From Oscillospiraceae bacterium (GTDB lineage Bacteria > Bacillota > Clostridia > Oscillospirales > Ruminococcaceae), in assembly GCA_022835495.1 (NCBI GenBank), contig BQOK01000001.1:682001-746000 (forward strand): a stretch of DNA of 64,000 nt, given 5' to 3'. Made by a program: the position numbers and the translations under genes. Shown here one piece after another: positions 1,054-40,460 of the stretch. Within the stretch, counting starts at the first letter, position 1; the number at the start of each line of letters is the position of its first letter. Below the pieces are notes generated by a model. It saw only the letters and a program-made list of their open reading frames with translations, did not search any database and was not told the DNA's origin.

Positions 1054-1202
1054 TGTTTCCTCCTTGCTTTGTGTAGCGCCGCATTTCCCGGGATGCGCTG
1101 GCCGACAAACAAAGAATAGCACCGGGGAAAATTTTTGGGAAATATGGATTCCCGATAGGGGGTATTTTTTGTGAGTATATCCACAAAATTTGGCCGGGAA
1201 TT

Positions 1203-13386: not shown

Positions 13387-13450
13387 TGCAAAGCGTCCTT
13401 TGCAAAATTAGTATAGCTTGCTTTGCAATAAATGTCAAGCGCGCTTTGCA
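13387..13450 (-). promoter_or_regulatory. XRE operon promoter with three phased operators
   Basis: The minus-strand promoter is TTGACA (13433-13438), 17 bp, TATACT (13410-13415). CTTTGCA occurs at 13398-13404, 13421-13427 and 13444-13450, exactly 23 bp apart. The first is half of the perfect palindrome TGCAAAGCGTCCTTTGCA (13387-13404) at the start point; the second lies in the spacer with a weak partner over the -10 box; the third pairs with TGTCAAG over the -35 box. This is a textbook repressor layout. Confidence 0.85.
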
Positions 13451-13536
13451 AAAAAATTAAAACAAGATTTTGCCAGGTCAAAACCGCACCCTTTTTGCCC
13501 CGCGTGGATAAAGTGATGAAAAGGGGGTAGAGGGAA

Positions 13537-19528: not shown

Positions 19529-21697
19529 TCACTGGGCCTGAAAATGCAGCAGGGTGGTGACGCAGTCGCCGGGGTGAGGGGGGAGCGCGATACCCGCATA
19601 CCGCAGGGTCGTGCCCTGGAAACAGCAGCCGCTGGAGGTTTCGCGGTAGCGCAGCCCGGGGGCGGCAAAGGGCAGCTTGAGCAGCCGCACGGGGGCGTTT
19701 GCCTGGGCTGCCGGGGCCATGTGGAACACAAAGATCTGGCGCTGGTCGGCCGAGAGCACGCCCCAGGCGAGTTGCCCCGGCGCGCCGGGAAGGGGCAGGC
19801 GGTAAAAGGCGCCTGCGTGGAGCACGGGGGCGAAGCGCTTGTAGAATTCGCACTGGCGGCGCACCTGCGCCTTTTCCTCTTCGGTGAGAAGGGCCAGATC
19901 CATCTCGTACCCAAGCTGCCCCCACAGGGCGGTATCGCCCCGGGCCTTGAGGGAGGTGACGCGCCCGGTCTGGTGGTTGGGAACGGCGGATACATGGCAG
20001 CCCATGCAGCTGAGGGGGTAACAGTAGGAGGTGCCGTACTGGATCTTTGCGCGCTCCAAAGCGTCGGTGTCGTCGCTGGCCCAGATCTGGGGGGAATAGT
20101 GCAGCATGCCGAGATCGAAGCGGCCGCCCCCGCCCGAGCAGTTTTCCACAAGGACCTGCGGGTAATGTTTGAAAAGCCGCTCCATCAATTCGTATACGCC
20201 CAGCATATAGCGGTGGGCTGCCTCGCCCTGGCGCTCCGGCGGCAGCAGGGCGGAGCCCACCTCGGTGAGGTGGCGGTTCATATCCCACTTCAGGTAGGAG
20301 ATGGGCGCCTTTTGGAGCAGCGAGTCGATTTGCTGCCAGACATGGTCCCGCACATCCTTCCGCGAAAGGTCCAGCACCAGCTGGTCGCGGCCGGTGGTGG
20401 CGGGGCGGCCGGGCTGATGCAGGCACCAGTCCGGGTGCCTGCGGTACAGTTCGCTGGCGGGCGAAACCATTTCCGGCTCGATCCACAGGCCCAGGGCAAG
20501 GCCGGTCTCCGCCAGCGCTTCGGCAAGGCCCGCCAGCCCCCGGGGCAGCTTTGCGGGATCCTCGGACCAGTCGCCCAGGGAGGAGGTATCGCTGCTGCGG
20601 CCCACGAACCAGCCGTCGTCCACCACCAGCAGTTCCACCCCGAGCTCCGCGGCCCGGCGGGCGAGGGCGAGCAGCTTTTGTTCATCGAAATCAAAATAGG
20701 TGGCCTCCCAGTTGTTCACCAGGATCGGGCGGCGGCGGTGCGCCCACGGCCCGCGGCAGAGATGGGTGCGCACGGCGCGGTGGAAGATCTGGCTCATGCC
20801 GTTCAGCCCCTGCCGGGAAAAAGCAAGCACGGCCTCGGGGGTGTAAAAGGCCTCGCCGGGGCCGAGAGACCAGGAAAAGCCCTCGGGCTGGATGCCCATG
20901 ACGCAGCGGACGGTATCGAACTGATCCTGCTCCACCAGGCAGGCGTAGCTGCCGCTGTAGACCAGGCCAAAGCCGTAAGCCGGGCCCGAATGCTCGGTGG
21001 TGTGGGGGGCGCACAGCGCAAAAAAGGGGTTGTGCTGGTGGCTGGAAGCCCCCCGCTTGCTGCCAAAGCCCTGAACACCGTGGCGTAAGGGCTGGCGCTC
21101 GGGCTGGCGCTCGCGGGCCCAGGCGCCCGGCAGCCCCAGCAGCTGCCAGGGTTCTGCCGGAAGATCCAGACAAAAGCTCATGGCCCGGTGCAGGGTGAGG
21201 GGGGCGGCGCCTCGGTTTACGATCACCGCGCTGCGGGTGAAAAAATCGTCCGCCTCGTACACGCCGTACAGCAGCCTGACGCACAGCCCGGACACCGGGT
21301 CTTCCAGCTCGAGCTCCAGAGTTTCCACCCCCCCGGGGGCCGCGCAGCAGGAGGGCAGGCCCGCAAGCGCCGGCTTGCCCCCGACAATGCGGTGCCGGAC
21401 ATAGTGCAGATCCACCGCGCCGTGCCCGGCGGCCAGGCTGGAAAGGCGAAAATCGCCCGCGCCGCTGCCCGAATACTCCTGCGGGAGGGTATCCAGCGAA
21501 AAATCCCGCCCGGGGTACCCCGCGGGGTTGGGCGAAAAAGAGCGCTCGGCGCGGGGGAAAAGGCAGCTCACGTCCGCATCGCCGATTTTGGCGCCATAAT
21601 ACAGATGCATGAGGTACGCCTGGTCGGTGATCTTGATGTGGTAGGAGGTGGAGCGCGTTTCCAGCTTGAACACGCCCCCCTGGAATTGGATGGACAT
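19529..21697 (-). CDS. GH36 alpha-galactosidase
   Basis: A 722-residue cytoplasmic enzyme (no signal peptide) of glycoside hydrolase family 36. The N-terminal beta-sandwich is followed by a TIM barrel with the nucleophile motif LKWDMNR (Asp472) and the acid/base region WASDDTDA (Asp542-Asp543), and a C-terminal beta domain. The conserved ENCSGGGGRFDLGML and ATYFDFDE stretches match well. It releases terminal alpha-1,6/1,3-linked galactose. ATG 21697 follows GAAAGGAACGG. The gene is divergent from the sulfatase-led operon and is likely part of the same glycan locus. The upstream alternative starts lack a ribosome binding site. Confidence 0.96.
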   Translation of the reverse strand: MSIQFQGGVFKLETRSTSYHIKITDQAYLMHLYYGAKIGDADVSCLFPRAERSFSPNPAGYPGRDFSLDTLPQEYSGSGAGDFRLSSLAAGHGAVDLHYVRHRIVGGKPALAGLPSCCAAPGGVETLELELEDPVSGLCVRLLYGVYEADDFFTRSAVIVNRGAAPLTLHRAMSFCLDLPAEPWQLLGLPGAWARERQPERQPLRHGVQGFGSKRGASSHQHNPFFALCAPHTTEHSGPAYGFGLVYSGSYACLVEQDQFDTVRCVMGIQPEGFSWSLGPGEAFYTPEAVLAFSRQGLNGMSQIFHRAVRTHLCRGPWAHRRRPILVNNWEATYFDFDEQKLLALARRAAELGVELLVVDDGWFVGRSSDTSSLGDWSEDPAKLPRGLAGLAEALAETGLALGLWIEPEMVSPASELYRRHPDWCLHQPGRPATTGRDQLVLDLSRKDVRDHVWQQIDSLLQKAPISYLKWDMNRHLTEVGSALLPPERQGEAAHRYMLGVYELMERLFKHYPQVLVENCSGGGGRFDLGMLHYSPQIWASDDTDALERAKIQYGTSYCYPLSCMGCHVSAVPNHQTGRVTSLKARGDTALWGQLGYEMDLALLTEEEKAQVRRQCEFYKRFAPVLHAGAFYRLPLPGAPGQLAWGVLSADQRQIFVFHMAPAAQANAPVRLLKLPFAAPGLRYRETSSGCCFQGTTLRYAGIALPPHPGDCVTTLLHFQAQ

Positions 21698-21770
21698 AGC
21701 GGCACCGTTCCTTTCTGGCACTGTTTTCTCTATCGTATAGAAACAGGGGCGCGCCGTCAATACGGCAGGG

Positions 21771-21841
21771 AAAAAACAAAAAATAATTCGCCCCGAACCA
21801 AAAAAGTTCGAGTTGCCGGCGCACCGCGGCGCTTTTACAAT
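21771..21841 (+). promoter_or_regulatory. Sulfatase promoter with shared locus element (site A)
   Basis: ACAAAAAATAATTCGCCCC begins at 21776; TTGCCG (21813-21818), 17 bp, TACAAT (21836-21841) forms the core. CGAAC/GTTCG arms at 21794-21798 and 21806-21810 make a further small palindrome. The distance from the element's ACAAAAA to the -10 box is 60 bp, as at the two other sites (23331 and 29970). Confidence 0.7.
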
Positions 21842-21861
21842 GGGAACAGGAGGGACCAGAT

Positions 21862-23322
21862 ATGAAAAAGAGGCCGAATATTTTATTGATCATGACCGAC
21901 GAGCAGCGGTTTGACGCGGTGGGATACCGCAACCCGGAGGTGCACACCCCGAACCTGGACCGCCTGGCGCAGGAAAGCGTGCGGTTTACAAACGCCTACG
22001 CCACCAACCCCTCCTGCATCCCGGCCCGGGCCGCCATTTTTACGGGACGATACCCCTCGCAGTGCGGCGCGCCCACCTATATGACCCCCCTGCCGAAAAA
22101 CGAGGTGACCTTTATGAGCCTTTTGCGGGCCGGGGGCTACCACACGGCGGTGGTGGGCAAGCAGCACTTCTGGAGGTACGAGGGGGACAAGGGCTACGAC
22201 TGGGCAGACATCATCGACGAGCATTTCCCGCCCGAGGTGATCAGCAAAGAGCTGGACGAGAGCGAGTTCGGCCTGCCGCAGAACCTGACGGTCTCGGACC
22301 GGGTGTCGAGCTATGTGGAATTTTTGGCGGACAGCGGCTTTACAAGGGGCGACCAGCTGTACCGCAGGCTCAGCGACAAGGGAATCTACGAGTTTTTTGC
22401 AGACGAACGATATTATGTGGACGGTTATGTGGGGGACCGGGGGCTGCAGTGGCTGCGGCAGGACTGCCCGAAGAACACCCCCTGGTTTTTGACCCTTTCC
22501 TTCCCGGGGCCGCACATGCCCTTCGACGGCATCGGCCTGCCCGACGCCGCGCAGTACCGCGGGGAGGAGTTGGCGCTGCCGGACAGCAGCGCCGCGGACC
22601 TTTTGGGAAAACCGCCCCATTACCTGGACATCCTGAAAAAATTCGGGCAGGTGAAGCTTGGCGACCCGCGCCGGCCCGGAGGGCTTGCCCCGCAGGAGAT
22701 CCGCAGTATGAAGCTTGCTTACTATGCGGATATCACCCTGATCGACCGCAAGATCGGCGCAGTGCTGGAGCTGCTGAAGGAAAAGGGCCTGTACGACGAC
22801 ACCCTGATCCTTTTTACCTCGGACCACGGGGATTTTATGGGGGATTTTGGGGTGGCCACCAAGGCGCAGTACCTTGCGGAGGCGCTGGTGCGCATCCCGT
22901 TTTTGCTGAAACCGCCGGTGGCGGGCTACCCGGGCCGCACCGAGGCTTCCTTTGTGAGCTCGGTGGAGATCGCGGCCACCTGCCTGACCGCGGCGGGGCT
23001 GGCCGTGCCCGCGAACATGCAGCAGCGCAGCCTGACGGATTTTTATACCCACCCCCGCCCGGAGCGGTGGAGCGAGGTGTATTTTGAGGCGCGGGATCTG
23101 CGGGGCCTGCGGGGAGAGCGCTACAAGCTGGTATATTACGCGGGGCGGCAGTACGGGGAGTTTTACGATCTGCAGGCGGATCCCGGGGAAAGGTACAACC
23201 TGTGGGAGGCCCCGCAGGTACAGGCGGAAAAGCGGCGGCTGCTGGACCGGCTGCTGGACAGGATGATCTCGCTGGGGGAATATGTGCAGACCGAGTGGCA
23301 CCCCACAGCCCCCCCGATCTGA
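21862..23322 (+). CDS. Cys-type sulfatase
   Basis: A 486-residue alkaline-phosphatase-fold sulfatase. The motif CIPARAAIFTGRYPSQ places the residue to be converted to formylglycine at Cys52, so it needs an anaerobic sulfatase-maturing enzyme, which is not in this window. Metal-binding residues are in LLIMTDEQRFD near the N-terminus and FTSDHGDFMGDFG near residue 315. No signal peptide is visible, so it should act in the cytoplasm on imported sulfated sugars. ATG 21862 follows CAGGAGGG. It precedes the ABC sugar importer genes. The sulfate position and sugar cannot be told. Confidence 0.93.
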   Translation: MKKRPNILLIMTDEQRFDAVGYRNPEVHTPNLDRLAQESVRFTNAYATNPSCIPARAAIFTGRYPSQCGAPTYMTPLPKNEVTFMSLLRAGGYHTAVVGKQHFWRYEGDKGYDWADIIDEHFPPEVISKELDESEFGLPQNLTVSDRVSSYVEFLADSGFTRGDQLYRRLSDKGIYEFFADERYYVDGYVGDRGLQWLRQDCPKNTPWFLTLSFPGPHMPFDGIGLPDAAQYRGEELALPDSSAADLLGKPPHYLDILKKFGQVKLGDPRRPGGLAPQEIRSMKLAYYADITLIDRKIGAVLELLKEKGLYDDTLILFTSDHGDFMGDFGVATKAQYLAEALVRIPFLLKPPVAGYPGRTEASFVSSVEIAATCLTAAGLAVPANMQQRSLTDFYTHPRPERWSEVYFEARDLRGLRGERYKLVYYAGRQYGEFYDLQADPGERYNLWEAPQVQAEKRRLLDRLLDRMISLGEYVQTEWHPTAPPI

Positions 23323-23330
23323 GGTGAAAA

Positions 23331-23395
23331 ACAAAAATTATCCCCCCGTTTGCAAAAATCCTTGCGTTTTTAGGGGCGGCATGGGCTGCTATACT
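23331..23395 (+). promoter_or_regulatory. ABC-importer promoter with shared locus element (site B)
   Basis: ACAAAAATTATCCCCCC begins at 23331, CTTGC follows at 23361-23365, and an extended -10 TGCTATACT ends at 23395. The -10 hexamer lies 59 bp after the element start. TTGCGT to TATACT is 22 bp, too long for a normal -35, pointing to an activator-dependent promoter. Confidence 0.7.
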
Positions 23396-23416
23396 TGAGG
23401 TAAAGAAGGTGCACAG

Positions 23417-24289
23417 ATGAAGAAGAGCAAGCTTACTTACAACAACTTTTACTATTACCTGCTGCTCGTGCTGCCGCTTTTGGTCATTTATGTGATGTTT
23501 TTTGTGATCCCAGTGCTTCAGAGCATGTTTTACAGCTTTACAAACTTTAACGGGCTGAACCCCAGCGTGAAATTTGTGGGGCTGAATAATTACAGCGTGG
23601 CGTTCACCGACAAATCGTTTTTGAAAGCGACGGTCAACACCGTGGCATTTGCCCTGGGCGTGACCGTGTTCCAGAACCTGTTCGCCATTTTGCTGGCCCT
23701 GGGGCTGAACCGGCGGTTCAGGGGCCGGGATATCATGCGCACGCTGGTGTTCGCACCCTGCATGCTCTCGCCCATTGTGGTGGCCTTTTTGTGGGAGTTC
23801 ATCTACAAACCGGATGGGCTGATCAACACACTGTTCGGCAGTTCGGTGATCTGGCTGGGCAACCAGGCCACGGCGCTTTGGGCGGTGATGTTCGCCCATG
23901 TGTGGATGTGGATGGGATATTCGGCCACGATCTACCTGTCGAACCTGCAGAACATTTCGGAGGACGTGCTGGAGGCGGCCGCAATGGATGGGTGCGGCGG
24001 CTGGAAACGGTTTTGGAGGATCATCTTTCCCATGCTGGCCCCCTCGACCACCATTAATGTGAGCCTGGCTTTTACCCAGAGCCTGAAAATTTTTGATATT
24101 GTTTACGCCATGACGAACGGCGGGCCGCAGGGCGCCACCGAGACCATGGGTACCTATGTGATGAAGCAGATGAACAACAATCTGCACGGGTACGCTTCGG
24201 CCCTGACCGTTGTGATGATGGTGCTGATTGTTGTTTCAGGGCAGTTTTTGATCCGAAACCTGAAACGCAGGGAGGAGGCGCTTTACTGA
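23417..24289 (+). CDS. Sugar ABC transporter permease (MalF type)
   Basis: A 290-residue inner membrane protein with six helices and the EAA loop (ISEDVLEAAAMDGCGGWKRFWRIIFPML) of binding-protein-dependent sugar importers (CUT1 family). It forms a heterodimer channel with the next gene's product. ATG 23417 follows AAGAAGGTG. No ATPase is encoded nearby; CUT1 importers in Firmicutes often share an MsmX-type ATPase encoded elsewhere. Confidence 0.94.
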   Translation: MKKSKLTYNNFYYYLLLVLPLLVIYVMFFVIPVLQSMFYSFTNFNGLNPSVKFVGLNNYSVAFTDKSFLKATVNTVAFALGVTVFQNLFAILLALGLNRRFRGRDIMRTLVFAPCMLSPIVVAFLWEFIYKPDGLINTLFGSSVIWLGNQATALWAVMFAHVWMWMGYSATIYLSNLQNISEDVLEAAAMDGCGGWKRFWRIIFPMLAPSTTINVSLAFTQSLKIFDIVYAMTNGGPQGATETMGTYVMKQMNNNLHGYASALTVVMMVLIVVSGQFLIRNLKRREEALY

Positions 24290-25131
24290 TGGGGCAAAGA
24301 CATGCGCGCCGCTGGAAAGGGCGGCTGCTGGCCGCGGCGGTGATCCTGGTCGCCCTGCTGGTGTTCTACCCCCTGGTGATGATGGCGATGGTTTCGCTGA
24401 AAACCAACCTGGAATTGACCACCGCGCCCTTTGGGCTGCCCCGGGAATTCCAGTGGCAGAACTACGCAGACGCCTTTTGGGGCATGGATTACCCCACGGC
24501 GTTCCGCAACTCGGCAGTGCTCACCGCGATCTCGGCGGCGGGGTGCACGCTGCTGGCGGCGGTGGGGGCGTACGCCATTGTGCGGGTGACCCACGGCAGG
24601 AAGCTGTTCGTGTTTTTCAACGCGTTTTTTCTGCTGGGCCTGGCGCTGCCCCAGCAGGTAGCCATGGTACCCATGGTGCTGTGGCTGCAGAAGCTGGGGC
24701 TGGGAGGCAGCCTTTTGGGGGTGTGCCTGGTGTACATTGCCGCAAACGCCGCGTACGGCGTGTTCTTTTTCAGCGGTTTTGTGGCCACCGTGCCCATTAC
24801 CCTGGAGGAGGCGGCCATGATCGACGGCGCCTCGCCTTTTACCGCCTTCCGGCGGATCGTGTTCCCGCTGCTCAAGCCCCCCATGGTGACCCTCCTGATC
24901 ATTATGATCCTGCGGGTGTGGAACGATTTTATGTACCCGCTGATCCTTTTGCAGGGCAAGACTTCGCGCACCCTGCCGCTCACGATCTACCTGTTTAAGG
25001 GCGATTATTCGACCCAATGGAATGTGATGTTCGCCGCCACCACCCTGGCCATCCTGCCGCTGATGATTGTGTATTTCATCTTTCAGAAACAGATCATTTC
25101 CGGCATGCTGAGCGGGTCGGTAAAACAATAG
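24289..25131 (+). CDS. Sugar ABC transporter permease (MalG type)
   Basis: A 280-residue CUT1 permease with six helices and the EAA loop ITLEEAAMIDGASPFTAFRRIVFPL. Its ATG shares the A of the TGA stop of the previous gene (24287-24289), so translation is coupled. It ends QKQIISGMLSGSVKQ, typical of MalG-type subunits. Works with the 23417 permease and the binding lipoprotein that follows. Confidence 0.95.
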   Translation: MGQRHARRWKGRLLAAAVILVALLVFYPLVMMAMVSLKTNLELTTAPFGLPREFQWQNYADAFWGMDYPTAFRNSAVLTAISAAGCTLLAAVGAYAIVRVTHGRKLFVFFNAFFLLGLALPQQVAMVPMVLWLQKLGLGGSLLGVCLVYIAANAAYGVFFFSGFVATVPITLEEAAMIDGASPFTAFRRIVFPLLKPPMVTLLIIMILRVWNDFMYPLILLQGKTSRTLPLTIYLFKGDYSTQWNVMFAATTLAILPLMIVYFIFQKQIISGMLSGSVKQ

Positions 25132-25190
25132 GCGCTTCATGGAACGACCATGACGGAATAAAAGGCACCTACATAAAGGAGGAACTACTG

Positions 25191-26501
25191 ATGAAAAAGA
25201 CACTTGGCATTCTGCTGGCCGCCGCGATGCTGGCCGCCGCACTGGCGGGCTGCGGGGGCGGCGCGGCCTCCGCTTCCGTGCCGGCAGGCAACCCCGGCCC
25301 GGCCCCGGCCTCCACGCCCGCCGCGGACCCGGTGCAGCTTTCGTTCTTCGGGTTCAAGACCGGCGGGGAGATCGGCGCGCTGGAAGAGCTGATCGCAAAA
25401 TTCAACGCGGAGAACCCGGATATCGTGGTGAGCTATGAGGGGCTTTCCAACGGCGGCGGCTACCAGGACGTGCTCACCACCCGCCTGGCGTCGGGCCAGG
25501 GCGACGACGTGTTTTTGGCAAACCCCAACTACCTGGGCAAGCTGCAGGAGGCCGGGTATGTGGAGGATCTGGCCGGCATGGCCGTGGTATCCAATTACAG
25601 CGATCTGGTGAAGGACCTGATGACCATTGACGGCAAGGTGCCGGGTCTGGCGATGGAGCTGGCCGTTTTTGGCATGTACACCAACAATGACGTGCTGAAG
25701 GCCCATGGCATCGGCGCCCCCACCAATTATGCCGAGTTCATGGCCGCCTGTGAAACGCTGAAGGCGGCCGGCGTGACGCCGGTGGTGGCCAGCGCCAAGG
25801 ACGGCACGGGCATTGGGGTGTTCAGCTCCACCAAAGGGCTGGACGGCCTGTATTCCGCCCCCGACAAGGCAGCGCAGATCGCGGCCATCAACGAGGGCAC
25901 CCAGTCTTTGGCGGAAACCATGATCGACGGCCTGGAGCTGGTCAGCGAGCTGAAGGCCAAGGGATACATCAACGCCGAGCAGGCGATGGTCATGGCCCCC
26001 GCACAGGACGACATCACCGAGTTTGTGAAGGGCAACACCGCCTTTATGACCGGCGGCGGCTGGAGCCTGGCCGCCATTCAGGAGGCCGCGCCCGGCGCGG
26101 ACATCACCCTGGGCGGCGTGCCCGTGCAGGAAAAGGACGCCCTTGTGATGGTGAACGCCGGCGTGCGGGTATGCATCAACAAGAGCTGCGAGAACAAAGA
26201 GGCGGCACAGCGCTTTGTGGAGTTTTTGACCAAGACCGAAAACCTGGATGAGTATGTTGCCAGCCAGAATGCGTTCACCCCGCTGAAGGACGGCACCAGC
26301 ACCTCGAACCCCGCCATGGCGGCCGCGGCCGAGCGCATCAGCGCCGGGCGCATGATCACCTGGGTGGACCCTGCGTTCAGCAAGCTGGACCCGTGGGCCC
26401 TCTCGAAGGAATATGCGGCCAACATCCTGGGCGGCTCCTCGGTGGAGACGGCCGTGAAGGACATGAACACCGCCGTTGCAAACGCGATTAAGCTGGCCTG
26501 A
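25191..26501 (+). CDS. Sugar-binding lipoprotein of the ABC importer
   Basis: A 436-residue extracellular solute-binding protein of family 1. The signal peptide ends in the lipobox LAGC with the lipidated Cys21, followed by a Gly/Ala/Pro/Ser linker. The mature part has the typical bilobal pattern (TGGEIGALEELIAKFNAENPDI near the start). ATG 25191 follows AAAGGAGGAACTACTG. It delivers an oligosaccharide to the two permeases upstream. A hairpin terminator follows the stop. Substrate inferred only from the neighbouring GH36, sulfatase and GH16 genes. Confidence 0.94.
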   Translation: MKKTLGILLAAAMLAAALAGCGGGAASASVPAGNPGPAPASTPAADPVQLSFFGFKTGGEIGALEELIAKFNAENPDIVVSYEGLSNGGGYQDVLTTRLASGQGDDVFLANPNYLGKLQEAGYVEDLAGMAVVSNYSDLVKDLMTIDGKVPGLAMELAVFGMYTNNDVLKAHGIGAPTNYAEFMAACETLKAAGVTPVVASAKDGTGIGVFSSTKGLDGLYSAPDKAAQIAAINEGTQSLAETMIDGLELVSELKAKGYINAEQAMVMAPAQDDITEFVKGNTAFMTGGGWSLAAIQEAAPGADITLGGVPVQEKDALVMVNAGVRVCINKSCENKEAAQRFVEFLTKTENLDEYVASQNAFTPLKDGTSTSNPAMAAAAERISAGRMITWVDPAFSKLDPWALSKEYAANILGGSSVETAVKDMNTAVANAIKLA

Positions 26502-26522
26502 CCGGCACGGCAGGTCCGCACA

Positions 26523-26556
26523 CCGCCCGCAGCATTGCCGCTGCGGGCGGCTTTTG
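26523..26556 (+). terminator. Terminator after the sugar-binding protein gene
   Basis: An 11-bp stem (26523-26533 with 26540-26550) with a 6-nt loop followed by CTTTT. Confidence 0.75.
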
Positions 26557-26561
26557 GTTGA

Positions 26562-26590
26562 TTGCATTCGGGGAGAGAGTTCGGTACAAT
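26562..26590 (+). promoter_or_regulatory. Promoter of the YesN/YesM-type pair
   Basis: TTGCAT (26562-26567), 17 bp, TACAAT (26585-26590). It lacks the A-rich/CCCC element seen at the three target promoters of the locus. Confidence 0.65.
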
Positions 26591-26621
26591 GGTAAAAAGC
26601 AAGGCCGCGAGGGGGGCAAGC

Positions 26622-28148
26622 ATGTATAAGGTATTGGCGGCGGACGACGAGGTGTGGATCCGCAGGTGGCTGGAAAAAACCATTCCCGAGGTCATGCCGG
26701 ACTGCCGGGTGGCGGCGGTGGCGGAGGACGGCGAGGCGGCGCTGCGCGCCCTGCGGGAAGAGGAAATCGACATTGTGGTGTCGGACATCCGCATGCCCAT
26801 GGCCACCGGCCTGGAGATCGCCCTGGCCGCCGGGAAAGGCGAAAAGCGGCCCAAGGTGATCCTGGTGAGCGGCTACGACGAGTTTGGGTATGCAAAGCAG
26901 GCGATCGACCTGAACGTGGTGAGCTACCTGCTGAAGCCCATCGACAAGCAGGAGCTGCAGCAGGCGCTGCAAAGGGCGGCGGCCGAGATCCGGCAGGAGG
27001 AGGCCCAGGCAGGCAGCGCGGAGCTGGTACAGGCGGCGATCCTGAAATATCTGCAGAACTATTTGCAGCAGCCGGAGGAATATACCTTTCAGGAGCTGGC
27101 GCGGGCGGTGAAGAGTGCGGGCAAGCGGTACGAGGCCGTTTACGCGGGCGTGTTCCAGTGTGACATATCGCTGGAAAAGGGGGCCACCCCGGCCCAGGTG
27201 ATCGACCGGCTGCTGGAGCGCCATTTTGCGGCCTGCGACCGCTTTGTGGTGCTGGAAGACAACATGAACTACGTGTTTTTTGCCCTGGGCGAGGAGGGCA
27301 AAAAGGTGGTGGGCCCGGACCCCAGGCTGCTGCGGGCGGAGGCGCAGCAGGCTTCGCCCAAATGCCGGCTGGAGCTGAGCGGGCGGTACGGGCGGCTGGC
27401 GGACCTGCCCGCCGCCGTTGCCCAGGCGCGGGGCCGGCTGATCGAGAGCTATGCCGGCGAAAAGTCGGCCGCGGTGGTGGACACCAGCCGGGGGCGGATC
27501 CTGGCGATCCGTTCCAGTATCCTGCTGGCGGTGAAGGCCCACAACCCCGGGGAGGCGGAGCACGGCGTGCAGCTGCTGCGGGAGATGTTTTCGGGCCGGA
27601 ACAGCCATTTTGACGACTGCCGCTACATCCTGTTCAGCCTGATCAGCGAGATGATCCGACTGATCGCGGATGCGGACGGCTCGTTTATGAACCAGTACAT
27701 CGGGCGGGGGTACGAGTTTTGTGTGAAGATCAATCACTACCACAATGTGCCCGCCATGCTGGACTGGTTTGCGGGCTATGTGCGCCAGGTGGCGGAATAT
27801 CTGGAAAAAAACCAGAGCTTTAATGTGTCGCACATTGCGGTGCGGGTGCGCAATTACATGCTGGAGCATTACGCCGAGGACATCAGCCTGGCTGATATCT
27901 GCGATAAGTTCGGCATCAACGCGAGTTACTTCAGCAAAAAATTCAAGGAAGAGATCGGCATGAATTTTGTGGACCTGCTCACCAGCATCCGCCTGGACGC
28001 CGCCGCGCAGCTGCTCTTGAACACCAGAAATTCCGTGGCGCAGATCAGCAAAAGCGTGGGCATCAACGACGCAAAATATTTCAGCAAGCTGTTCCACAAC
28101 AGCTATGGGATGAACCCCACACAGTACCGGGAACGGGGCGCGGGGTAA
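26622..28148 (+). CDS. AraC-type response regulator (YesN-like)
   Basis: A 508-residue regulator with an N-terminal receiver domain (phosphoacceptor Asp55 in VVSDIRMPM, acidic pair DDE at 8-10), a central linker of about 270 residues, and a C-terminal AraC helix-turn-helix pair (about 405-505; ISLADICDKFGINASYFSKKFKEEIG and ISKSVGINDAKYFSKLFHNSYGMNP). ATG 26622 follows GAGGGGGG. It is cotranscribed with the histidine kinase. In family members this pair controls adjacent carbohydrate import genes; here the shared promoter element is the likely binding site. Confidence 0.93.
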   Translation: MYKVLAADDEVWIRRWLEKTIPEVMPDCRVAAVAEDGEAALRALREEEIDIVVSDIRMPMATGLEIALAAGKGEKRPKVILVSGYDEFGYAKQAIDLNVVSYLLKPIDKQELQQALQRAAAEIRQEEAQAGSAELVQAAILKYLQNYLQQPEEYTFQELARAVKSAGKRYEAVYAGVFQCDISLEKGATPAQVIDRLLERHFAACDRFVVLEDNMNYVFFALGEEGKKVVGPDPRLLRAEAQQASPKCRLELSGRYGRLADLPAAVAQARGRLIESYAGEKSAAVVDTSRGRILAIRSSILLAVKAHNPGEAEHGVQLLREMFSGRNSHFDDCRYILFSLISEMIRLIADADGSFMNQYIGRGYEFCVKINHYHNVPAMLDWFAGYVRQVAEYLEKNQSFNVSHIAVRVRNYMLEHYAEDISLADICDKFGINASYFSKKFKEEIGMNFVDLLTSIRLDAAAQLLLNTRNSVAQISKSVGINDAKYFSKLFHNSYGMNPTQYRERGAG

Positions 28149-28165
28149 AAAAAGGAGGAGGGACC

Positions 28166-29938
28166 GTGAAACAGAAGATCAGCACCCGCATCCTGCTGTC
28201 CATGCTGGCGGTGGCGCTGGTGCCGCTTGTGACCATCTTTTTTTACATCACGTCCCGTTATTCGCAGGACCTGAAGCGCAGCACGCTTGAGCAAAAGGAG
28301 GCGGCGCAGCAGAGCAGCGTGAACGAACTGGTGGACTACCTGACCAAGATCGAGTTTATCTCGAACATCTGCTTTGACCCCAATGTGCAGCAGATCATAC
28401 GGCAGGAGGCGAACGACACGCTGCAGCGCTACAACAACCAAAACCAGATCGAGCGCAACATCCGGGTGAGCCTGGATTTGTTTGATATTCTGGAAACGGT
28501 GGATCTTGTTTCCATCTCGAACACCAAGGGCATCACATATAACATAGGGCAGGCCCAGTGGGCCCCTTATGCCCAGCAGGTGATACAGCAGCAGAAGGAT
28601 ACCCTGGCAGCCGCATACAAGCTGCAGGAGCTGGCGGCAATGGAGTGGTACCTGCCGGGGCAGGCGCCTGTGAGGGACAAGCTGATCTACACCCGCAGCA
28701 TCAACGACATCTCGGTGACAGAGAAAAACATCGGCACAATCTGGATCGTGTTCGACAAAGCGCAGTTCGGGCGGCTACTGGCCAAATACAGCGAGGCGGA
28801 AGGATCGGCGGTGGCGGTGCGCGACAAAACAGGGCGGCTGCTGTACACAAATTTTGAGGGCGCCGCCGGCGAGCTGGCGCAGCTGGAGGCCGGGGCGGAG
28901 GAACTGCGGGGGACAAAAGGGAGCGTGGGGACCATCAAGGCGGCGTATCCGGCAAGCTCGCTGGGGCTGACCGTGACCTTTTACGACGATCTGGCGGTGG
29001 TGCTTGCGCCGCTGACCGCTTTGCGGCGCATTACCCTGTGCGTGATCGGGGGCACGGTTGTGCTGATCTTCGCGCTGGCGATGTTCCTTTCGCGCGGGCT
29101 GGTGCGCCCGATCCGCCAGCTGCAGAAGGGGGTGGACAAGGTGCGCGAGGGGGATTTTGCGATCCATCTGCCGGTGCAGAGCAGGGACGAGTTGGGGGCG
29201 CTTTGCAATACGTTCAACCTGATGGCGGAGAAGATTGACTTTTTGGTGAATGAGGTGTACGCCACACAGCTGAGTGAAAAGGAGGCGGTGATCGCCTCGC
29301 TCACCTCGCAGATCAACCCGCACTTTTTGTATAATACCCTGGACATGGTCAAGAGCATGGCGGAGCTGGAGGACGTGGAGGAGATCGGGGAAATTGCAAA
29401 GGCGCTTTCGGGCCTGTTCCGCTACAGCACCAGAAATGACAGGCTGCTGGTGCCGGTGCGGGAGGAGCTGGAAAACCTGAACAACTACACCCGCATTTTG
29501 CAGGCCCGGTTCGGCGGCAAGATCTGGTTTGAGATCGACGCCGCGCCGGACACTCTTTCCTGCGAGATTATTAAGGTTTGCCTGCAGCCCCTGATTGAAA
29601 ACTCGGTGAGCCACGGGCTGGTGCAAAAGGGCGGCCGGGGCCGCATTTCCATTCGCATCCGGCGCGGGGAGGGGCTGCTGGAGATCGTGGAGGAGGACGA
29701 CGGCGCCGGGATGGACGGCGCTACCCTGGCCCGGGTGCAGGCGCTTTTGCGGCAGGAAGCCGGGCTGCAGGCAGGCGCGGCGCGCCCGCCCGCCGATAGG
29801 CCGCACGGCGGGGTGGGGCTGCAGAACATCAACCAGCGCATCCGCCTGTATTACGGCCCGGAATACGGCATTCTTTTGAGCAGCGAGCCGGGCAAAGGTA
29901 CCCGCGTGACCATTACGGTGCCGGCGATTGAGGTGTGA
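28166..29938 (+). CDS. Sensor histidine kinase (YesM-like)
   Basis: A 590-residue membrane kinase: helix at about 10-30, extracellular sensor of about 255 residues, second helix at about 290-310, HAMP domain (RPIRQLQKGVDKVREGDF), then His_kinase domain with QINPHFLYNTLD (His386) and an ATPase domain (ENSVSHGL, DDGAGMD, GVGLQNINQRI). The start is GTG 28166 behind AAAGGAGGAGGGACC. It should phosphorylate the regulator encoded 17 bp upstream in response to an extracellular signal, possibly the loaded sugar-binding protein or a glycan fragment. Confidence 0.94.
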   Translation: MKQKISTRILLSMLAVALVPLVTIFFYITSRYSQDLKRSTLEQKEAAQQSSVNELVDYLTKIEFISNICFDPNVQQIIRQEANDTLQRYNNQNQIERNIRVSLDLFDILETVDLVSISNTKGITYNIGQAQWAPYAQQVIQQQKDTLAAAYKLQELAAMEWYLPGQAPVRDKLIYTRSINDISVTEKNIGTIWIVFDKAQFGRLLAKYSEAEGSAVAVRDKTGRLLYTNFEGAAGELAQLEAGAEELRGTKGSVGTIKAAYPASSLGLTVTFYDDLAVVLAPLTALRRITLCVIGGTVVLIFALAMFLSRGLVRPIRQLQKGVDKVREGDFAIHLPVQSRDELGALCNTFNLMAEKIDFLVNEVYATQLSEKEAVIASLTSQINPHFLYNTLDMVKSMAELEDVEEIGEIAKALSGLFRYSTRNDRLLVPVREELENLNNYTRILQARFGGKIWFEIDAAPDTLSCEIIKVCLQPLIENSVSHGLVQKGGRGRISIRIRRGEGLLEIVEEDDGAGMDGATLARVQALLRQEAGLQAGAARPPADRPHGGVGLQNINQRIRLYYGPEYGILLSSEPGKGTRVTITVPAIEV

Positions 29939-29963
29939 AAAGCGCGGCGGCGCCGAACAAGCG

Positions 29964-30034
29964 CGAAAAACAAAAAATATCGCCCCTGAAACAAAGAACC
30001 TTGCCTTGAGGCAGAGGAAAAAATCTCCTATCTT
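29964..30034 (+). promoter_or_regulatory. GH16 gene promoter with shared locus element (site C)
   Basis: GAAAAACAAAAAATATCGCC starts at 29965, CTTGCC follows at 30000-30005, and a -10-like TATCTT lies at 30029-30034. The ACAAAAA-to--10 distance is 59 bp and the TTGCC-to--10 spacing 22 bp, both identical to site B. Confidence 0.65.
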
Positions 30035-30079: not shown

Positions 30080-33000
30080 GTGAAACGAAAATGGAACGTT
30101 TGCGGCCGGGCTGTGCTGGCGCTGGCCATTGCGGCTGTGGTGGCAGTGCAGACAGCGCCCCGGGGCTTTGCGCTGGCGGGACGGCAGGAGGAGAGCGGGG
30201 CGCCGCTGCCGCTCTCGGACCCGGAGAACAGCAAGCACTGGAAATTCGACGAAACCCTTTCGGATGAATTTGACGGCGAAGCGCTGGACGAGCAAAAATG
30301 GCAGCCCATCCCCTTTACCTGGGCCGGCAAGTGGCGCTGGGAGGACGACCAGGTGGCGGTGGGCGGGGGCAGCCTGCACCTGACGGCCCGGCATGCCAGA
30401 AATTCTACCCTGGACCAGAGCCCCAACGGGTGGAACACGCATATCATGTACGACGGTGATTCGGAGAATGGGGAGTTTGTGTCCACACAGTACGGCTCCC
30501 GCTCGGGGGAGGCCGCGCTGGTATACGCGAACTTTTTCCCCATTTGGGTGCGCACCGACGCCACCATCGCCGGCCTGGACCCGGCGAAGAGCTACACCTT
30601 TTCGGTGTGGGTAAAGCGCGCCGGGCACAGCAGCATTGCCCAGATGTACGCCTGTGACCCGGCGGTGAAAAGCATTCCGCTGGCGCCCGCAGAGATCCGG
30701 GAATTTGGGCAGAGCGAGGATTTTGTACAGTATTCGATCACCGGCATCACCCCCAACGCGGCGGGCCAGTGCAAGATCGGCTTTGAGATAAAGGCAGACC
30801 CTTACGCGGTGACCGTGCTGGACGACGTGAGCTTTGCCGCGGAGGGGGAAGGGGGCGTGAACCTGGCCCCCAACCCCGGCTTTGAAGATATCACACCCAT
30901 GAACTATGCCTCGGGCGGGATCATAAGCCGGAACACCATGAAATACGGCTACATGGAAACCCGGGCCAAGGGGGCCCCGGCGCTGCCCGGCGCGTGCAGC
31001 GCGATCTGGCTGCTGGGACGCACAGACGACTGGGGCACCGAGATCGACGTGCTGGAGATCGGGCAGACCTCCACTGTGAACGAGCTGGATTTTGCGGTGC
31101 ACACCTTCAAGACCCGGGATTCGGTGAAAACGCCCCGGCAGGACGTGAACCCCCACGGGAGCGCCGGTATTTGGGGAAACCGCAATTCCTTTAACCCCAG
31201 CGAAGCCTACCATGTGTACGGGCTGGAATGGGGCCCGGGCTACCAAAAATTTTATGTGGACGGGACCCTGATGGGGGAATTTTACGGCTCCACCAAGGCG
31301 CCGGAAAGCGGCGGGCCCGCGGCGCAGTGGCAGACCAGCAGCACCGGCCACGCGAACAATATGAACGCGATCCCCCAGAGCCTGCTGCTGTCTTTGGGGC
31401 TGCGGCCGCCGTACCGGGACGGCAACGACCCCAGCCTGAACACCACCTTTGACGTGGATTACATCCGCGTGTGGCGGGCCGATAACCAGGAGGCCAAAGG
31501 CGACATCCGCGAGGTGGTGACGAACGAGGGCAACCTGGTGGTGCCCTATGGCACAAGCGAGGCCGAGCTGCTGGCCCGGCTGCCCGCCACGGTGCCGGTG
31601 CTGGTGGGCACGCCCGCACAAAAGCTGAGCCTGCTGAACCAGCGGGATGTGCCGGTGAACTGGGAGGTGAGCGGCTTTTCCGGCGAGGCGGCCGGGGTGA
31701 CCACGGTGCTTCGGGGCACCCTGGGGGAGCTGCCGCAGGGGGTGGCAAACCCTGCAGGGCTGGCGGCCAGCCTGAACATTTACGTGCAGAATGGAGAACG
31801 CGGGGTGGACAAGACCGCGCTGCAGGCCCTGGCGGACCGGCCGTACACCGAGGCCGAGTATACCGCCACATCCTGGAACAGCTACCTCGCAGCGAGAGCG
31901 GCTGCCCGGGCCGTGCTGGCAGACGAGGAAGCCACGGCCGGGGAGGTTCTGGCGGCGTACGAAGCGCTGAACGAGGCGATCAAGGCCCTGAAGCCCGCGC
32001 CCAATCTGGATGCGCTGCTGGCAAGGCGGCTGGACGCGGGGAAATACACCGCGCCGACCTGGTGGGAATACACGACGGCCCGCAGCGCCGCGCAGGCGGT
32101 GCAGGCAGGCGGCAGCGCCGCCGGGGAGACCGAAGCCGCATATGAACGCCTTTGGACGGCCATTCAGCAGCTGGAGGAGCTGCCGGAGGGCGAAAATGTT
32201 TTGCAGGGGAAAATGCCTGCGGCGGACGTGAGCGTGCAGAACGCTGCTGCCGCCACGGATGGGGTCATTCCCGATACGGGCTGGGGCCCGGATACCGACA
32301 AGACGGTTTACACCACCCTTTTGGCAGGGGCCGAAGGGGGAGCGGACAACGGCTACGCCGGGTGGCCCGGCGCTTACCTGGAATACGACCTGGGCGAGGA
32401 ACAGCCGATCCAGCGGCTGGAAATTTACCGCTCGTGGTACGCCACGGATCTGCGGTCGGTCACCTGGAAGGACTGCCGGGTGGAGCTGTGCGCCACGCCA
32501 GACTTTGCGCCGGAGGCTACGGTGAGCGCAGGCCCCGCGGACTATGTGCTGAATTCCGACACGGACGTTTCGCAGCTGGGACGCAGACAGCCGCAGATCG
32601 TGGAGCTGGAACAGCCCGCCCGCGCCCGATACATCCGGGTATACGGCAGGGGGCATCTTGGCGGCTGGGGGAACTACAGCGCCCGGATGAGCTACGGAGA
32701 GATCCGGGCCCTGAAAGCGCCCGCCCCCCAGTGGGACAAGCTGAACGGCCTGGTTGCGCAGGCGAGGCAGGCCGCCGGGGGCGAGCTTGACCCGGAGCCG
32801 GCCGGGCGGCTGCAGGCGGCGCTGGACGCCGCGCAGGCACTGCCCGCGGATGCGGATGCGGCGGCGGTGAATGAAGCGTACGCTCTGCTGAAAACGGCGC
32901 TGAAAGCCGCCGGGCCGGCCCCGGAAACGCTGGAAAGCCTTGTGGCCCGCGCGGAAGCACTGCAGGGGGGCGAATACCTGCCCAGCAGCTGGGCGGTGTT

Positions 33001-33463
33001 TGCCCAGGCGCTGGACACGGCCCAGGCGGCGCTGGAGAGGCCGGAGGAGCGGGACGCGGCGCGGGCGGCCCTGCGCGCGGCAATGGATGCGCTGGTACCG
33101 GCAGAAAACGTTCTGCTGGGCTTGCTTCCCGATTCGGACGCGGAGATCGAAAACCCCGCGGCCACCACGGACGGCAGCGCCGCGGCGGCCGGATGGAGTG
33201 CCGACTCGGACAAGAGCGGCTACACCACGATTTTTGCCGGGCAGGAGGGCGGCGAGGAAAATGGCTATGGAAGCTGGCCCGGGGCGTATCTGCAATACGA
33301 CCTAGGGCGGGAGAGAAGTATTGCGGAGCTGGTGATCCATCGCTCGTGGTATGCGGCGGATCTGCGGCCGGTCACCTGGAAGGACTGCATGATCCAGCTT
33401 TCGACCGAGGCGGACTTTGCACCGGAGCACACCGTTACCGCCGGCCCCGGGGACCTGGCCTAG
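30080..33463 (+). CDS. Secreted multidomain GH16 glycoside hydrolase, ends at an in-frame TAG
   Basis: A 1127-residue protein starting at GTG 30080 behind AGGAGG. Order: signal peptide (1-33); GH16 beta-jelly-roll (about 55-125 and 275-465) with catalytic EIDVLE (Glu321, Glu326); within it, at about 130-270, an inserted carbohydrate-binding-like beta-sandwich; an Ig-like domain (about 480-575); two FIVAR repeats; an F5/8C module; two more FIVAR repeats; and a second F5/8C module that is cut by TAG at 33461. GH16 enzymes cut beta-1,3 or beta-1,4 glucans and galactans, including agar-type and mucin glycans. No LPXTG or SLH anchor is seen. The same frame continues to 33637. Confidence 0.9.
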   Translation: MKRKWNVCGRAVLALAIAAVVAVQTAPRGFALAGRQEESGAPLPLSDPENSKHWKFDETLSDEFDGEALDEQKWQPIPFTWAGKWRWEDDQVAVGGGSLHLTARHARNSTLDQSPNGWNTHIMYDGDSENGEFVSTQYGSRSGEAALVYANFFPIWVRTDATIAGLDPAKSYTFSVWVKRAGHSSIAQMYACDPAVKSIPLAPAEIREFGQSEDFVQYSITGITPNAAGQCKIGFEIKADPYAVTVLDDVSFAAEGEGGVNLAPNPGFEDITPMNYASGGIISRNTMKYGYMETRAKGAPALPGACSAIWLLGRTDDWGTEIDVLEIGQTSTVNELDFAVHTFKTRDSVKTPRQDVNPHGSAGIWGNRNSFNPSEAYHVYGLEWGPGYQKFYVDGTLMGEFYGSTKAPESGGPAAQWQTSSTGHANNMNAIPQSLLLSLGLRPPYRDGNDPSLNTTFDVDYIRVWRADNQEAKGDIREVVTNEGNLVVPYGTSEAELLARLPATVPVLVGTPAQKLSLLNQRDVPVNWEVSGFSGEAAGVTTVLRGTLGELPQGVANPAGLAASLNIYVQNGERGVDKTALQALADRPYTEAEYTATSWNSYLAARAAARAVLADEEATAGEVLAAYEALNEAIKALKPAPNLDALLARRLDAGKYTAPTWWEYTTARSAAQAVQAGGSAAGETEAAYERLWTAIQQLEELPEGENVLQGKMPAADVSVQNAAAATDGVIPDTGWGPDTDKTVYTTLLAGAEGGADNGYAGWPGAYLEYDLGEEQPIQRLEIYRSWYATDLRSVTWKDCRVELCATPDFAPEATVSAGPADYVLNSDTDVSQLGRRQPQIVELEQPARARYIRVYGRGHLGGWGNYSARMSYGEIRALKAPAPQWDKLNGLVAQARQAAGGELDPEPAGRLQAALDAAQALPADADAAAVNEAYALLKTALKAAGPAPETLESLVARAEALQGGEYLPSSWAVFAQALDTAQAALERPEERDAARAALRAAMDALVPAENVLLGLLPDSDAEIENPAATTDGSAAAAGWSADSDKSGYTTIFAGQEGGEENGYGSWPGAYLQYDLGRERSIAELVIHRSWYAADLRPVTWKDCMIQLSTEADFAPEHTVTAGPGDLA

Positions 33464-37508: not shown

Positions 37509-37562
37509 GAAGCATGAAAAACAAAACAGCGGGCGCCGGCCCGCGGGGGAGGGGTGCAGACC

Positions 37563-40460
37563 ATGGACACCGTGCTGAGCCGCGAACTGTTGGAGGAACT
37601 GGAAGCGCTGGGGGACCAGGGGCTTTTTTACAAAATGCTGGACGTTCTGCAGGACTATGTGGAGGACGGCGAGGACCAGGGGCGCTTTACCCGCGAGGCG
37701 GCCGAGGGCGATTTGGAGCTGGCGCTGTGGGTGGCCTATGCCGACCTGAACATTGACGAATACGAGAGCTACTACCAGGCCATCCGCTGGCTGGAACGGG
37801 TGCGGGGCGCGGCGTTCGGCAGCGGGGTGTGGTATTACCGGCTGGCCTCGGCCTACATTTACACCGGCCAGCTGCAAAAGGCGCGGGAGACCGCGGAGCA
37901 GGGCGCGCAGGTGGCGCCGGATTATGCCTGGGGGTGGCTGAACACCGCCAAGCTGCGGGCGCACTTCGGCGACCGGGAGGGGGCGCTGGCCGCCGTGGAG
38001 CGGGGCCTTGCGCTGGAACCCGGGGATTACGAGTTCACCCGCACCCGCGCCGAGATCGAGGCGGGCGCGGCGCTGGACGAGATGGAGTGCCACTACATTG
38101 ACCCGGAGGCGGACCGGCAGCTGCAGACCGACCCGGAGCTGCTGGCGGAAAAGCGCCAGTCGGTGCGGTGCATCCTGTGCGACGAGGAGAACCTGGCGGC
38201 GGTGAAGGCCGCCCTGGGCGCGCAAACGTGGGAGTTTGAAGCCCCGTATTGCTACTGCACCCTGCCGTACCAGGGCGGGGAACTGAGCGCCCGGTTCGAT
38301 ATGAACGAGGCGGGAGTTTCAAAATTTACCGCGGCCTGGGCCGCGCAGCTGGCGGCGCGCCTGGCGGAGCTGGACGGCATGGCCGCGGCGCTGGTGGCCG
38401 AAAAGCACCCGGGCGCGCGGCTGGAGCTGGGGCATGTGGTGTTCCAGCGCTCGGGCGGGGTGCTGCTGGGCTACCATGTGGGCAAGAGCCGGGAGGAACG
38501 GCTGTATGCCTATGCGGGGTTTGGGGCAGACCTTGCCCCCGTGGGAGGCGTTACTTACCGGGACTACACCGGCGATGAGAACGAGGAAGAGGGCGATTGG
38601 GCCGACGGCAGCGGCCAGGGGGACGAGTGGCAGCCGCCCGAGGTGTACGGCGAGCGGGAGCTCGGCCTGCTGGAGGCGCACATTGAAAAATATTTCGGCA
38701 GGTTCGACGAGGTGTTCCACGAGCTGGTCAGCCCGGACATCCACGTGGATGTGTATGTGATCGCGCCCACCCCCCAGCGGAATTACTACACGCTTGTGAC
38801 CGGGGGCATGGGCGCCCACCGCATGAACATCCCCCCCGAGCTTGCGCGGTACAATGTGGACCGGGCCGAGATGCTGCTGCGCCTGCCGCCGGACTGGCAA
38901 TTCCGGGAGAAGGACGAAAAGTGGTACTGGCCCATCCGCTGGCTGAAATTGCTGGCGCGCCTGCCCCTGGAGCAGGATACCTGGCTTGGCTGGGGGCACA
39001 CGGTGCCGAACGGCCGGCCCTTTGCGGCCAACACCCTGCTTTCGGGGGTGCTGCTCACCGCGCCGGAGGGGGTGCCCAAGGAGGGCTCGGCCTGCCCCAT
39101 GCCGGACGGCAGCGAGGTGAACTTTTACCAGGTGCTGCCCCTTTACGACGAGGAGATGGACTACAAGCTGGACCACGACGCGGCCGCCCTGCTGGAACGC
39201 ATGGAGGCAAAGGGCGCGCTGGCCTGCCCGTATATCCGGCTGGAACGGCCCAACGCCTGTGCCGACGAGCAGCCGGACCCGCCGGTGGACCCCGCTTTTT
39301 TGGAGCAGCTGGCCGCCTGGCACGAGGACTGCGAGTACGAAAAGATTGTGGAGGCCATTGAGGCGGTCCCCCCGCAGGAGCGCGGGTATGTGCCGACCGG
39401 GCAGCTGGCCCGGGCGCTGAACAACCTGGAGCGCTATGCGGAGGCGGCGGAGCTGCTGCTGGCCACTAAAAAGCGCGGCCGCTCGGACCCGCTGTGGCAT
39501 TTCCGGCTGGGCTACGCCTATTATTACATGGATCAGGAGGTAAAGGCGCTGCCTGAATTTGAGCGGGCGGATGAGCTTTCGCCCGGGGACGAGGACACCG
39601 AGACCTTTCTGCGGTGGTGCCGCTCGGCCATTGCGCTGCCGGTGAGCGTGAAGCCGTTCAAGGCGCGGGTGGAACAGTTCTGGACGGCCTTTGCAAAAAA
39701 AGAGGCGGCGCTGCGGGAGCTGTGGCGGGCGGAGGGCCCGGACGCTGCGGCAAAGGAGCTGGCGGGGCTGCTGAAGATCGCCTTTTCGGCCATGCCGTTT
39801 TCGCTGGCCGCGCTTTCGGACGGGCGGCAATGCGTGCTGCTCTCGGCCGAGGGGCGGGCGAACCGGCTGTTCCGGCTGCTGTTCTGGCGGGACGCGGCCC
39901 CGGCGGAGCTGGCGGAGCACTGGGAATTCAAGGTGGAATGCCCGCCCTGCGAGGGGGACGGCGAGGAAGCGCCCCAGGAGGCGGACGAGCGGGCGATCTT
40001 TTACACCAACTACCGCTGCACCCCCGCCGAGGGTGAGGACTGGCTGCTGCGCCAGGACGTGATCGCCGGCAACAGCTGCTGCCAGAGCCTGGTGCGGGCC
40101 TACTACCAGGGCGACGACTCCATTATGGACGAGGAGCTGGCCGACGGGGCGGTGTGCGGCTTTTTGTTCTACGCAAGCGGCAGCCTGCCCGAGGCGGAGC
40201 TGGTGGAGTTCCGGGGGCGCATCGAGGAGGAGCTGGCCGGGCGCGGCGCGGCGTTTTTGCAGGTGCTGGGCGGCGCCGTGGGCTTTCAGTATTCCTACAT
40301 CGACTGCATTGCCTTTGACCTGAAGGAGTTTTTGGATCTGGCGGGAGAGATCCTGAACCGGTTCGAGCTGCCGGAGATCGGTTTTCACGTGTTCCGGGTG
40401 GAGTGCGGGGGCGTGAATATGAAGGCGGAGCCGGAGGACGGGGAGCCGGAGGAGGACTGA
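37563..40460 (+). CDS. Large TPR and Suppressor-of-fused (SUFU) domain protein
   Basis: A 965-residue, acidic, soluble protein. Residues about 60-175 are TPR-like (YRLASAYIYTGQLQKARETA, GWLNTAKLRAHFGDREGALA). Residues about 360-500 resemble the SUFU domain (HIEKYFGRFDEVFHELVSPD, IPPELARYNVDRAEMLLRLP, TWLGWGHTVPNG). More TPR-like sequence follows (about 570-690), and the C-terminal part (about 700-950) contains a repeated alpha/beta unit I do not recognise. Bacterial SUFU proteins often occur as immunity proteins of polymorphic toxins, but no toxin gene is adjacent. ATG 37563 follows GGGGGAGG. It ends in a run of Glu, Asp and Pro. Confidence 0.78.
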   Translation: MDTVLSRELLEELEALGDQGLFYKMLDVLQDYVEDGEDQGRFTREAAEGDLELALWVAYADLNIDEYESYYQAIRWLERVRGAAFGSGVWYYRLASAYIYTGQLQKARETAEQGAQVAPDYAWGWLNTAKLRAHFGDREGALAAVERGLALEPGDYEFTRTRAEIEAGAALDEMECHYIDPEADRQLQTDPELLAEKRQSVRCILCDEENLAAVKAALGAQTWEFEAPYCYCTLPYQGGELSARFDMNEAGVSKFTAAWAAQLAARLAELDGMAAALVAEKHPGARLELGHVVFQRSGGVLLGYHVGKSREERLYAYAGFGADLAPVGGVTYRDYTGDENEEEGDWADGSGQGDEWQPPEVYGERELGLLEAHIEKYFGRFDEVFHELVSPDIHVDVYVIAPTPQRNYYTLVTGGMGAHRMNIPPELARYNVDRAEMLLRLPPDWQFREKDEKWYWPIRWLKLLARLPLEQDTWLGWGHTVPNGRPFAANTLLSGVLLTAPEGVPKEGSACPMPDGSEVNFYQVLPLYDEEMDYKLDHDAAALLERMEAKGALACPYIRLERPNACADEQPDPPVDPAFLEQLAAWHEDCEYEKIVEAIEAVPPQERGYVPTGQLARALNNLERYAEAAELLLATKKRGRSDPLWHFRLGYAYYYMDQEVKALPEFERADELSPGDEDTETFLRWCRSAIALPVSVKPFKARVEQFWTAFAKKEAALRELWRAEGPDAAAKELAGLLKIAFSAMPFSLAALSDGRQCVLLSAEGRANRLFRLLFWRDAAPAELAEHWEFKVECPPCEGDGEEAPQEADERAIFYTNYRCTPAEGEDWLLRQDVIAGNSCCQSLVRAYYQGDDSIMDEELADGAVCGFLFYASGSLPEAELVEFRGRIEEELAGRGAAFLQVLGGAVGFQYSYIDCIAFDLKEFLDLAGEILNRFELPEIGFHVFRVECGGVNMKAEPEDGEPEED

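Follow-up and report, generated by a model that had tools for sequence, protein, structure and literature searches.

Three copies of an ACAAAAA-type element precede genes of one probable sulfated-sugar utilization cluster in a 64,000-nucleotide stretch of an Oscillospiraceae bacterium genome (contig BQOK01000001.1, positions 682,001 to 746,000; the window, in whose numbering positions are given below). They lie at 21776 before a sulfatase gene, at 23331 before an ABC permease gene, and at 29970 before a GH16 gene (sites 1, 2, and 3). Each element is built as tandem half-sites, and this 21-bp direct repeat was overlooked in the preliminary description of the DNA. We consider it highly probable, judging from sequence, that this element serves as operator for the AraC-type (YesN-class) response regulator of the gene at 26622, which would bind as a tandem dimer and activate transcription from beside RNA polymerase. 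The preliminary description had ascribed the sites to this regulator and proposed a local regulon; this appears to be the best-supported reading because the element is confined to the cluster, has the form of a 21-bp repeat, and is paralleled in layout by a second, YesN-linked element in the same family.

The likeness among the three elements is real, and all three were found where they had originally been placed. Two of the search tools were fitted to their own members, and their figures are thus partly circular: the pattern ACAAAAAWTAN{0,6}CCCC has an expectation of 0.00 in the shuffled 64-kb window and occurs four times in the 3.76-Mb genome, three of these being sites 1 to 3, and a sequence model of the three sites (R1) matches only these three genome-wide, at 42.6, 42.0, and 37.9 bits, followed by a next match at 13.8 bits. 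The fourth exact match to the pattern (window 1158-1172, minus strand) is unrecognized by the full model and was taken as chance. Sites 2 and 3 are identical at 32 of 42 bases, against a best value of 28 to 29 in 60 simulated windows. With a model made from sites 2 and 3 alone, site 1 is the third and last genome match (E = 0.09), indicating that it is the weakest of the three.

The close resemblance of sites 2 and 3 could also be the trace of a recent, functionless duplication of a promoter segment. The similarity, however, falls mostly within the half-sites and the -10 box, and the spacers, both between half-sites and between element and -10 box, vary in sequence but keep their length, a mark of selection on spacing. 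Coincidence is very unlikely in view of the window shuffles, the simulations for sites 2 and 3, and the two-site model. Taken together, duplication without function or coincidence is an extremely improbable source of the similarity.

Each element consists of two half-sites of the RCAAARAW type, in the same orientation and with a 21-bp step. The upstream half-site has the form ACAAAAAWTATCSCCCC, with a version 2 bp longer in site 1, and the downstream half-site reads CCAAAAAAGTTCGAGTT in site 1, its form at the other two sites being RCAAARAWCCTTGCSTT. Self-matches summed over the three elements peak at 28 for the 21-bp step, a value reached by about 2 of 20,000 shuffles; the runner-up step has 23 matches. 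In site 1 the repeat is less exact, with a best step of 20 to 22. When the hexamers of the predicted -10 boxes are set as -12 to -7, the half-sites fall at about -71 to -55 and about -50 to -34.

A-rich blocks in such positions might instead act as UP elements or curved A-tracts, stimulating RNA polymerase directly with no dedicated regulator. The blocks at about -49 to -44 do resemble a proximal UP subsite, and some of the weak model matches in AT-rich relatives are due to A-rich stretches before promoters. Direct stimulation nevertheless leaves the C-run, the TTGC(C/G) step, the 21-bp step, and the second A-block at -69 unexplained. If general, it also predicts the element at many promoters, whereas the genome has it at three only. 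We regard this explanation as very unlikely.

The spacing to the promoter is equally regular. Index 0 being the initial A of ACAAAAA, the -10 boxes are predicted at index 60 (TACAAT, site 1), 59 (TATACT, site 2), and 59 (TATCTT, site 3); our recount of these distances agrees with the one first reported. The downstream half-site, at constant distance from the predicted -10 box, abuts or overlaps the -35 region. The TTGC steps, previously treated as one shared feature, are of two kinds. For sites 2 and 3 the index of TTGC is 31; there it is part of the downstream half-site, and hence of the putative operator, and is no -35 box. For site 1 the index is 37, and TTGCCG there reads as an ordinary weak -35 box 17 bp before TACAAT. 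The distance from CCCC to TTGC, given earlier as 19 to 23 bp, is actually 22, 18, and 18 bp from start to start.

These assignments bear on whether the promoters need activation, as the preliminary description had argued from a 22-bp spacing between TTGC and the -10 box at sites 2 and 3. The measurement is right, but TTGC cannot stand there as a badly spaced -35 box, since it belongs to the putative operator, and the spacer argument is lost with it. The proposal itself is plausible. Compared with TTGACA, the -35 place holds TTGCCG at site 1, TTGAGG at site 3 (4/6), and TTTTTA at site 2 (3/6), so that the promoters of sites 1 and 3 each have a weak -35 at the usual spacing. Weak promoters that would need help are still likely. 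The absence of the element before the regulator gene was borne out, and that gene has a predicted promoter of its own, TTGCAT-17-TACAAT. The -35 end of the predicted divergent GH36 promoter is 15 bp from site 1, and site 1 may thus act both ways, on the sulfatase and the GH36 promoters. Folding of the presumed 5' end of the GH16 transcript gives a hairpin whose stability does not exceed that of shuffled sequences.

All three strong genome-wide matches lie within 5 kb (≤5 kb) of the regulator gene at 26622. Its product matches Pfam Response_reg and HTH_18 above cut-off, ends in an AraC-type double helix-turn-helix, and has intact receiver residues D8, D9, D55, S83, and K105. The adjoining gene encodes a kinase of the His_kinase/HATPase (YesM) class with an intact H-box (QINPHFLY) and a weak match to a Cache sensor domain.

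The operator could also belong to a regulator encoded elsewhere, either another AraC-type protein or a catabolite regulator. Adjacency is circumstantial, and the genome has 24 matches to this regulator class, so that another member could in principle bind. Against this, all three copies are in one cluster, the scan of cluster genes recognized no second regulator, and YesN-class operators elsewhere adjoin their own regulator. We consider a regulator encoded elsewhere very unlikely.

Besides these 24 matches, several other points weigh against assigning the element to the regulator at 26622. The repeat is carried mainly by the A-rich boxes, and the C-run occurs in the upstream half only. Only three sites are known, and one of them, site 1, combines the longer upstream half with a usable -35. 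Further, no orthologous locus or regulator orthologue was found in 397 family genomes, 100 relatives, and a scan of GTDB contigs, the genus being represented by one genome; the best full-length homologues of the regulator in the 397 family genomes are 25-30% identical, and the GTDB scan yielded distant homologues only.

Searches with R1 in the other family genomes gave nothing above 20.8 bits. Across the family there are 55 weak matches besides the three sites, mostly A-rich promoter-like or chance sequence. One of them, in locus L080, is directly before an ABC permease gene with TATAAT at index 60; the permease gene is divergent from a YesN-type pair, and the locus includes a sulfatase gene. 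It is the only weak match so placed among those whose surroundings were read and is suggestive, though picked after the fact. The nearest regulator paralogue in the same genome (locus L058) is beside two sulfatase genes, and no such element was found before them.

A second element in the family has a parallel layout and serves as an independent control. Codon periodicity, visible as peaks at multiples of 3, confounded a count of intergenic 21-bp repeats in the fetched loci, and the same count combined with the -10 distance in promoter regions of homologous loci gave only a broad excess at 20 to 22. Reading the matches of the latter scan led to the second element, AAGTTTTTTNATANAA...GAAGATTTTTCTATCGTTTTT, which precedes the binding-protein genes of CUT2-type sugar-ABC loci and is unrelated in sequence to sites 1 to 3. 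R2, a model from five copies, detects the element in 30 of the 397 family genomes, once in each. Among the 26 strongest copies, self-matches are again maximal at 21 bp, and TAMAAT follows at a fixed distance. By our own count, 19 of the 26 aligned sites are followed at a distance of about 4 kb by a YesN-type regulator gene in the same orientation, and a further two have one within 0.7 kb; of the other five, two are truncated at a contig end. The copy in the present genome (L055, 4440-4505; C1:404439-404504) has a paralogous regulator at 8604, and other copies are in loci L166-L195. From the A-box of the second half-site to the -10 box, the distance is about 35 bp in the second element and 36 bp in sites 1 to 3.

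Two unlike sequences with one layout, both by regulators of the same class, make a mechanism of this class likely. More tentatively, and with some doubt, we propose that YesN-class regulators of the family may share a rigid layout (half-sites 21 bp apart, the second 35-36 bp before the -10 box, a weak or no -35) with a regulator-specific sequence, and that the site 1 operator may drive GH36 as well as the sulfatase. If this is true, the operators of many uncharacterized YesN pairs could be read from single genomes by the layout rule.

Two other 21-bp repeats were noted near YesN-type pairs. In locus L125, from another genome, a C-rich direct repeat (AAAAGAAACCCCCTATAAGAC CAAACGCAGCCCCCTTATG, then TATAAT) precedes an ABC ATPase gene ending at 6397 (minus strand), in a CUT2-type ABC operon beside a YesN-type pair. 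In locus L104, a strong repeat at 13414-13480 (GTAAAATAGCAATGGAAAATC/TAAAAATAGCAACAGGAAATG, with TATAAT) precedes a binding-protein gene divergent from such a pair.

The half-sites, promoters, and genes of the cluster are collected in Table 1. The GH16 enzyme is nearest to kappa-carrageenases, at a score under the NCBIfam cut-off, and on this basis a sulfated galactan is a reasonable guess for the substrate. The ABC operon is followed, before the regulator gene, by an 11-pair G+C-rich hairpin (26523-26550), which probably separates the two transcription units. Elsewhere in the window, a 968-amino-acid open reading frame (ORF) at 37554-40460 encodes a SUFU (Suppressor of fused) domain and TPR repeats.

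Table 1. Half-sites, predicted promoter elements, and genes of the cluster (window coordinates)
Feature	Position	Strand	Sequence or remark
Site 1 upstream half-site	21776..21794	+	ACAAAAAATAATTCGCCCC; exceeds its counterparts in sites 2 and 3 by 2 bp
Site 1 downstream half-site	21798..21814	+	CCAAAAAAGTTCGAGTT
Site 2 upstream half-site	23331..23347	+	ACAAAAATTATCCCCCC
Site 2 downstream half-site	23352..23368	+	GCAAAAATCCTTGCGTT
Site 3 upstream half-site	29970..29986	+	ACAAAAAATATCGCCCC
Site 3 downstream half-site	29991..30007	+	ACAAAGAACCTTGCCTT
GH36 promoter, divergent	21732..21760	-	TTGACG-17-TACGAT (predicted)
Sulfatase promoter	21813..21841	+	TTGCCG-17-TACAAT (predicted)
ABC -10 box	23390..23395	+	TATACT, extended by a TG one base before it; the -35 place holds TTTTTA
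Regulator promoter	26562..26590	+	TTGCAT-17-TACAAT (predicted sigma-A), without the element
GH16 promoter	30006..30034	+	TTGAGG-17-TATCTT (predicted, weak)
GH36 alpha-galactosidase-type gene, divergent	19529..21697	-	
S1-type sulfatase	21862..23322	+	CxPxR motif (CIPAR) intact, residue 52
ABC sugar permease	23417..24289	+	CUT1 type
ABC sugar permease	24289..25131	+	CUT1 type
ABC solute-binding protein	25017..26501	+	Listed ORF; start probably downstream of 25131
YesN-class response regulator	26622..28148	+	Presumed binder
YesM-class histidine kinase	28166..29938	+	
GH16 enzyme	30080..33463	+	Catalytic EIDVLE intact

What is known of the regulator's family suggests how such a system might work. 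The membrane kinase encoded at 28166 would sense an extracellular sugar, probably a sulfated-galactan oligosaccharide, and would phosphorylate D55 of the regulator. With the half-sites 21 bp, or two helix turns, from each other, two regulator molecules would bind head to tail on the same side of the DNA. The one on the downstream half-site, at about -50 to -34, would touch the -35 region and bring RNA polymerase to promoters that have a weak -35 of their own or none. In this way expression of the sulfatase, the secreted GH16 enzyme, and the ABC importer would be turned on jointly, perhaps with that of the divergent GH36 enzyme.

Pairs of the YesN/YesM type are common sensors in gut Firmicutes, and few of their operators are described in the literature searched, which also gave us no previous account of the present site. 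The three sites would provide a precise candidate operator for one such pair and would make a single regulon of the sulfatase, ABC importer, and GH16 genes.

The half-site layout is like that of E. coli AraC at araI1-I2 of araBAD, where two direct half-sites are about 21 bp apart and the downstream one abuts the -35. AraC, however, unlike the present pair, is a one-component, sugar-binding regulator; it acts with DNA looping, of which no sign is seen here. Hybrid two-component systems (HTCS) in polysaccharide utilization loci of Bacteroides also have an AraC-type response-regulator output domain, and their sites are predicted to be direct repeats averaging 21 bp apart, with monomers on one side of the DNA (PMC3878776). 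There, kinase and regulator form one polypeptide and transport is by SusC/SusD, whereas here they are separate proteins accompanied by an ABC importer (PMC3878776). Similar, too, are AraC-type two-component regulators of Caldicellulosiruptor (e.g., AviRS and BxgRS, in CUT1/CUT2 sugar-ABC loci), local pairs with an AraC-type DNA-binding domain beside an ABC importer and glycan enzymes, whose tandem-repeat sites upstream of mapped promoters led to their being judged activators (PMC8579813). The bacteria and genes differ, and the starts were mapped there but are predicted here; the comparison is one of layout (PMC8579813). In Clostridium cellulolyticum, the kinase XydS and the AraC-type response regulator XydR (532 amino acids) activate neighbouring glycan-enzyme genes; the DNA-binding domain of XydR binds upstream of its targets, and no site was found before its own genes (PMC3572039). 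Its targets are of the xylan type and it has no defined operator consensus, unlike the present cluster (PMC3572039). For the pneumococcal YesMN-type pair TCS07/RR07, a candidate A/T-rich RR07 motif lies 39-60 bp before the start site; its sequence is unlike the present element, and no clear repeat was found for YesN (PMC11034029). Against this background, regulation of the cluster would be of an ordinary, known kind.

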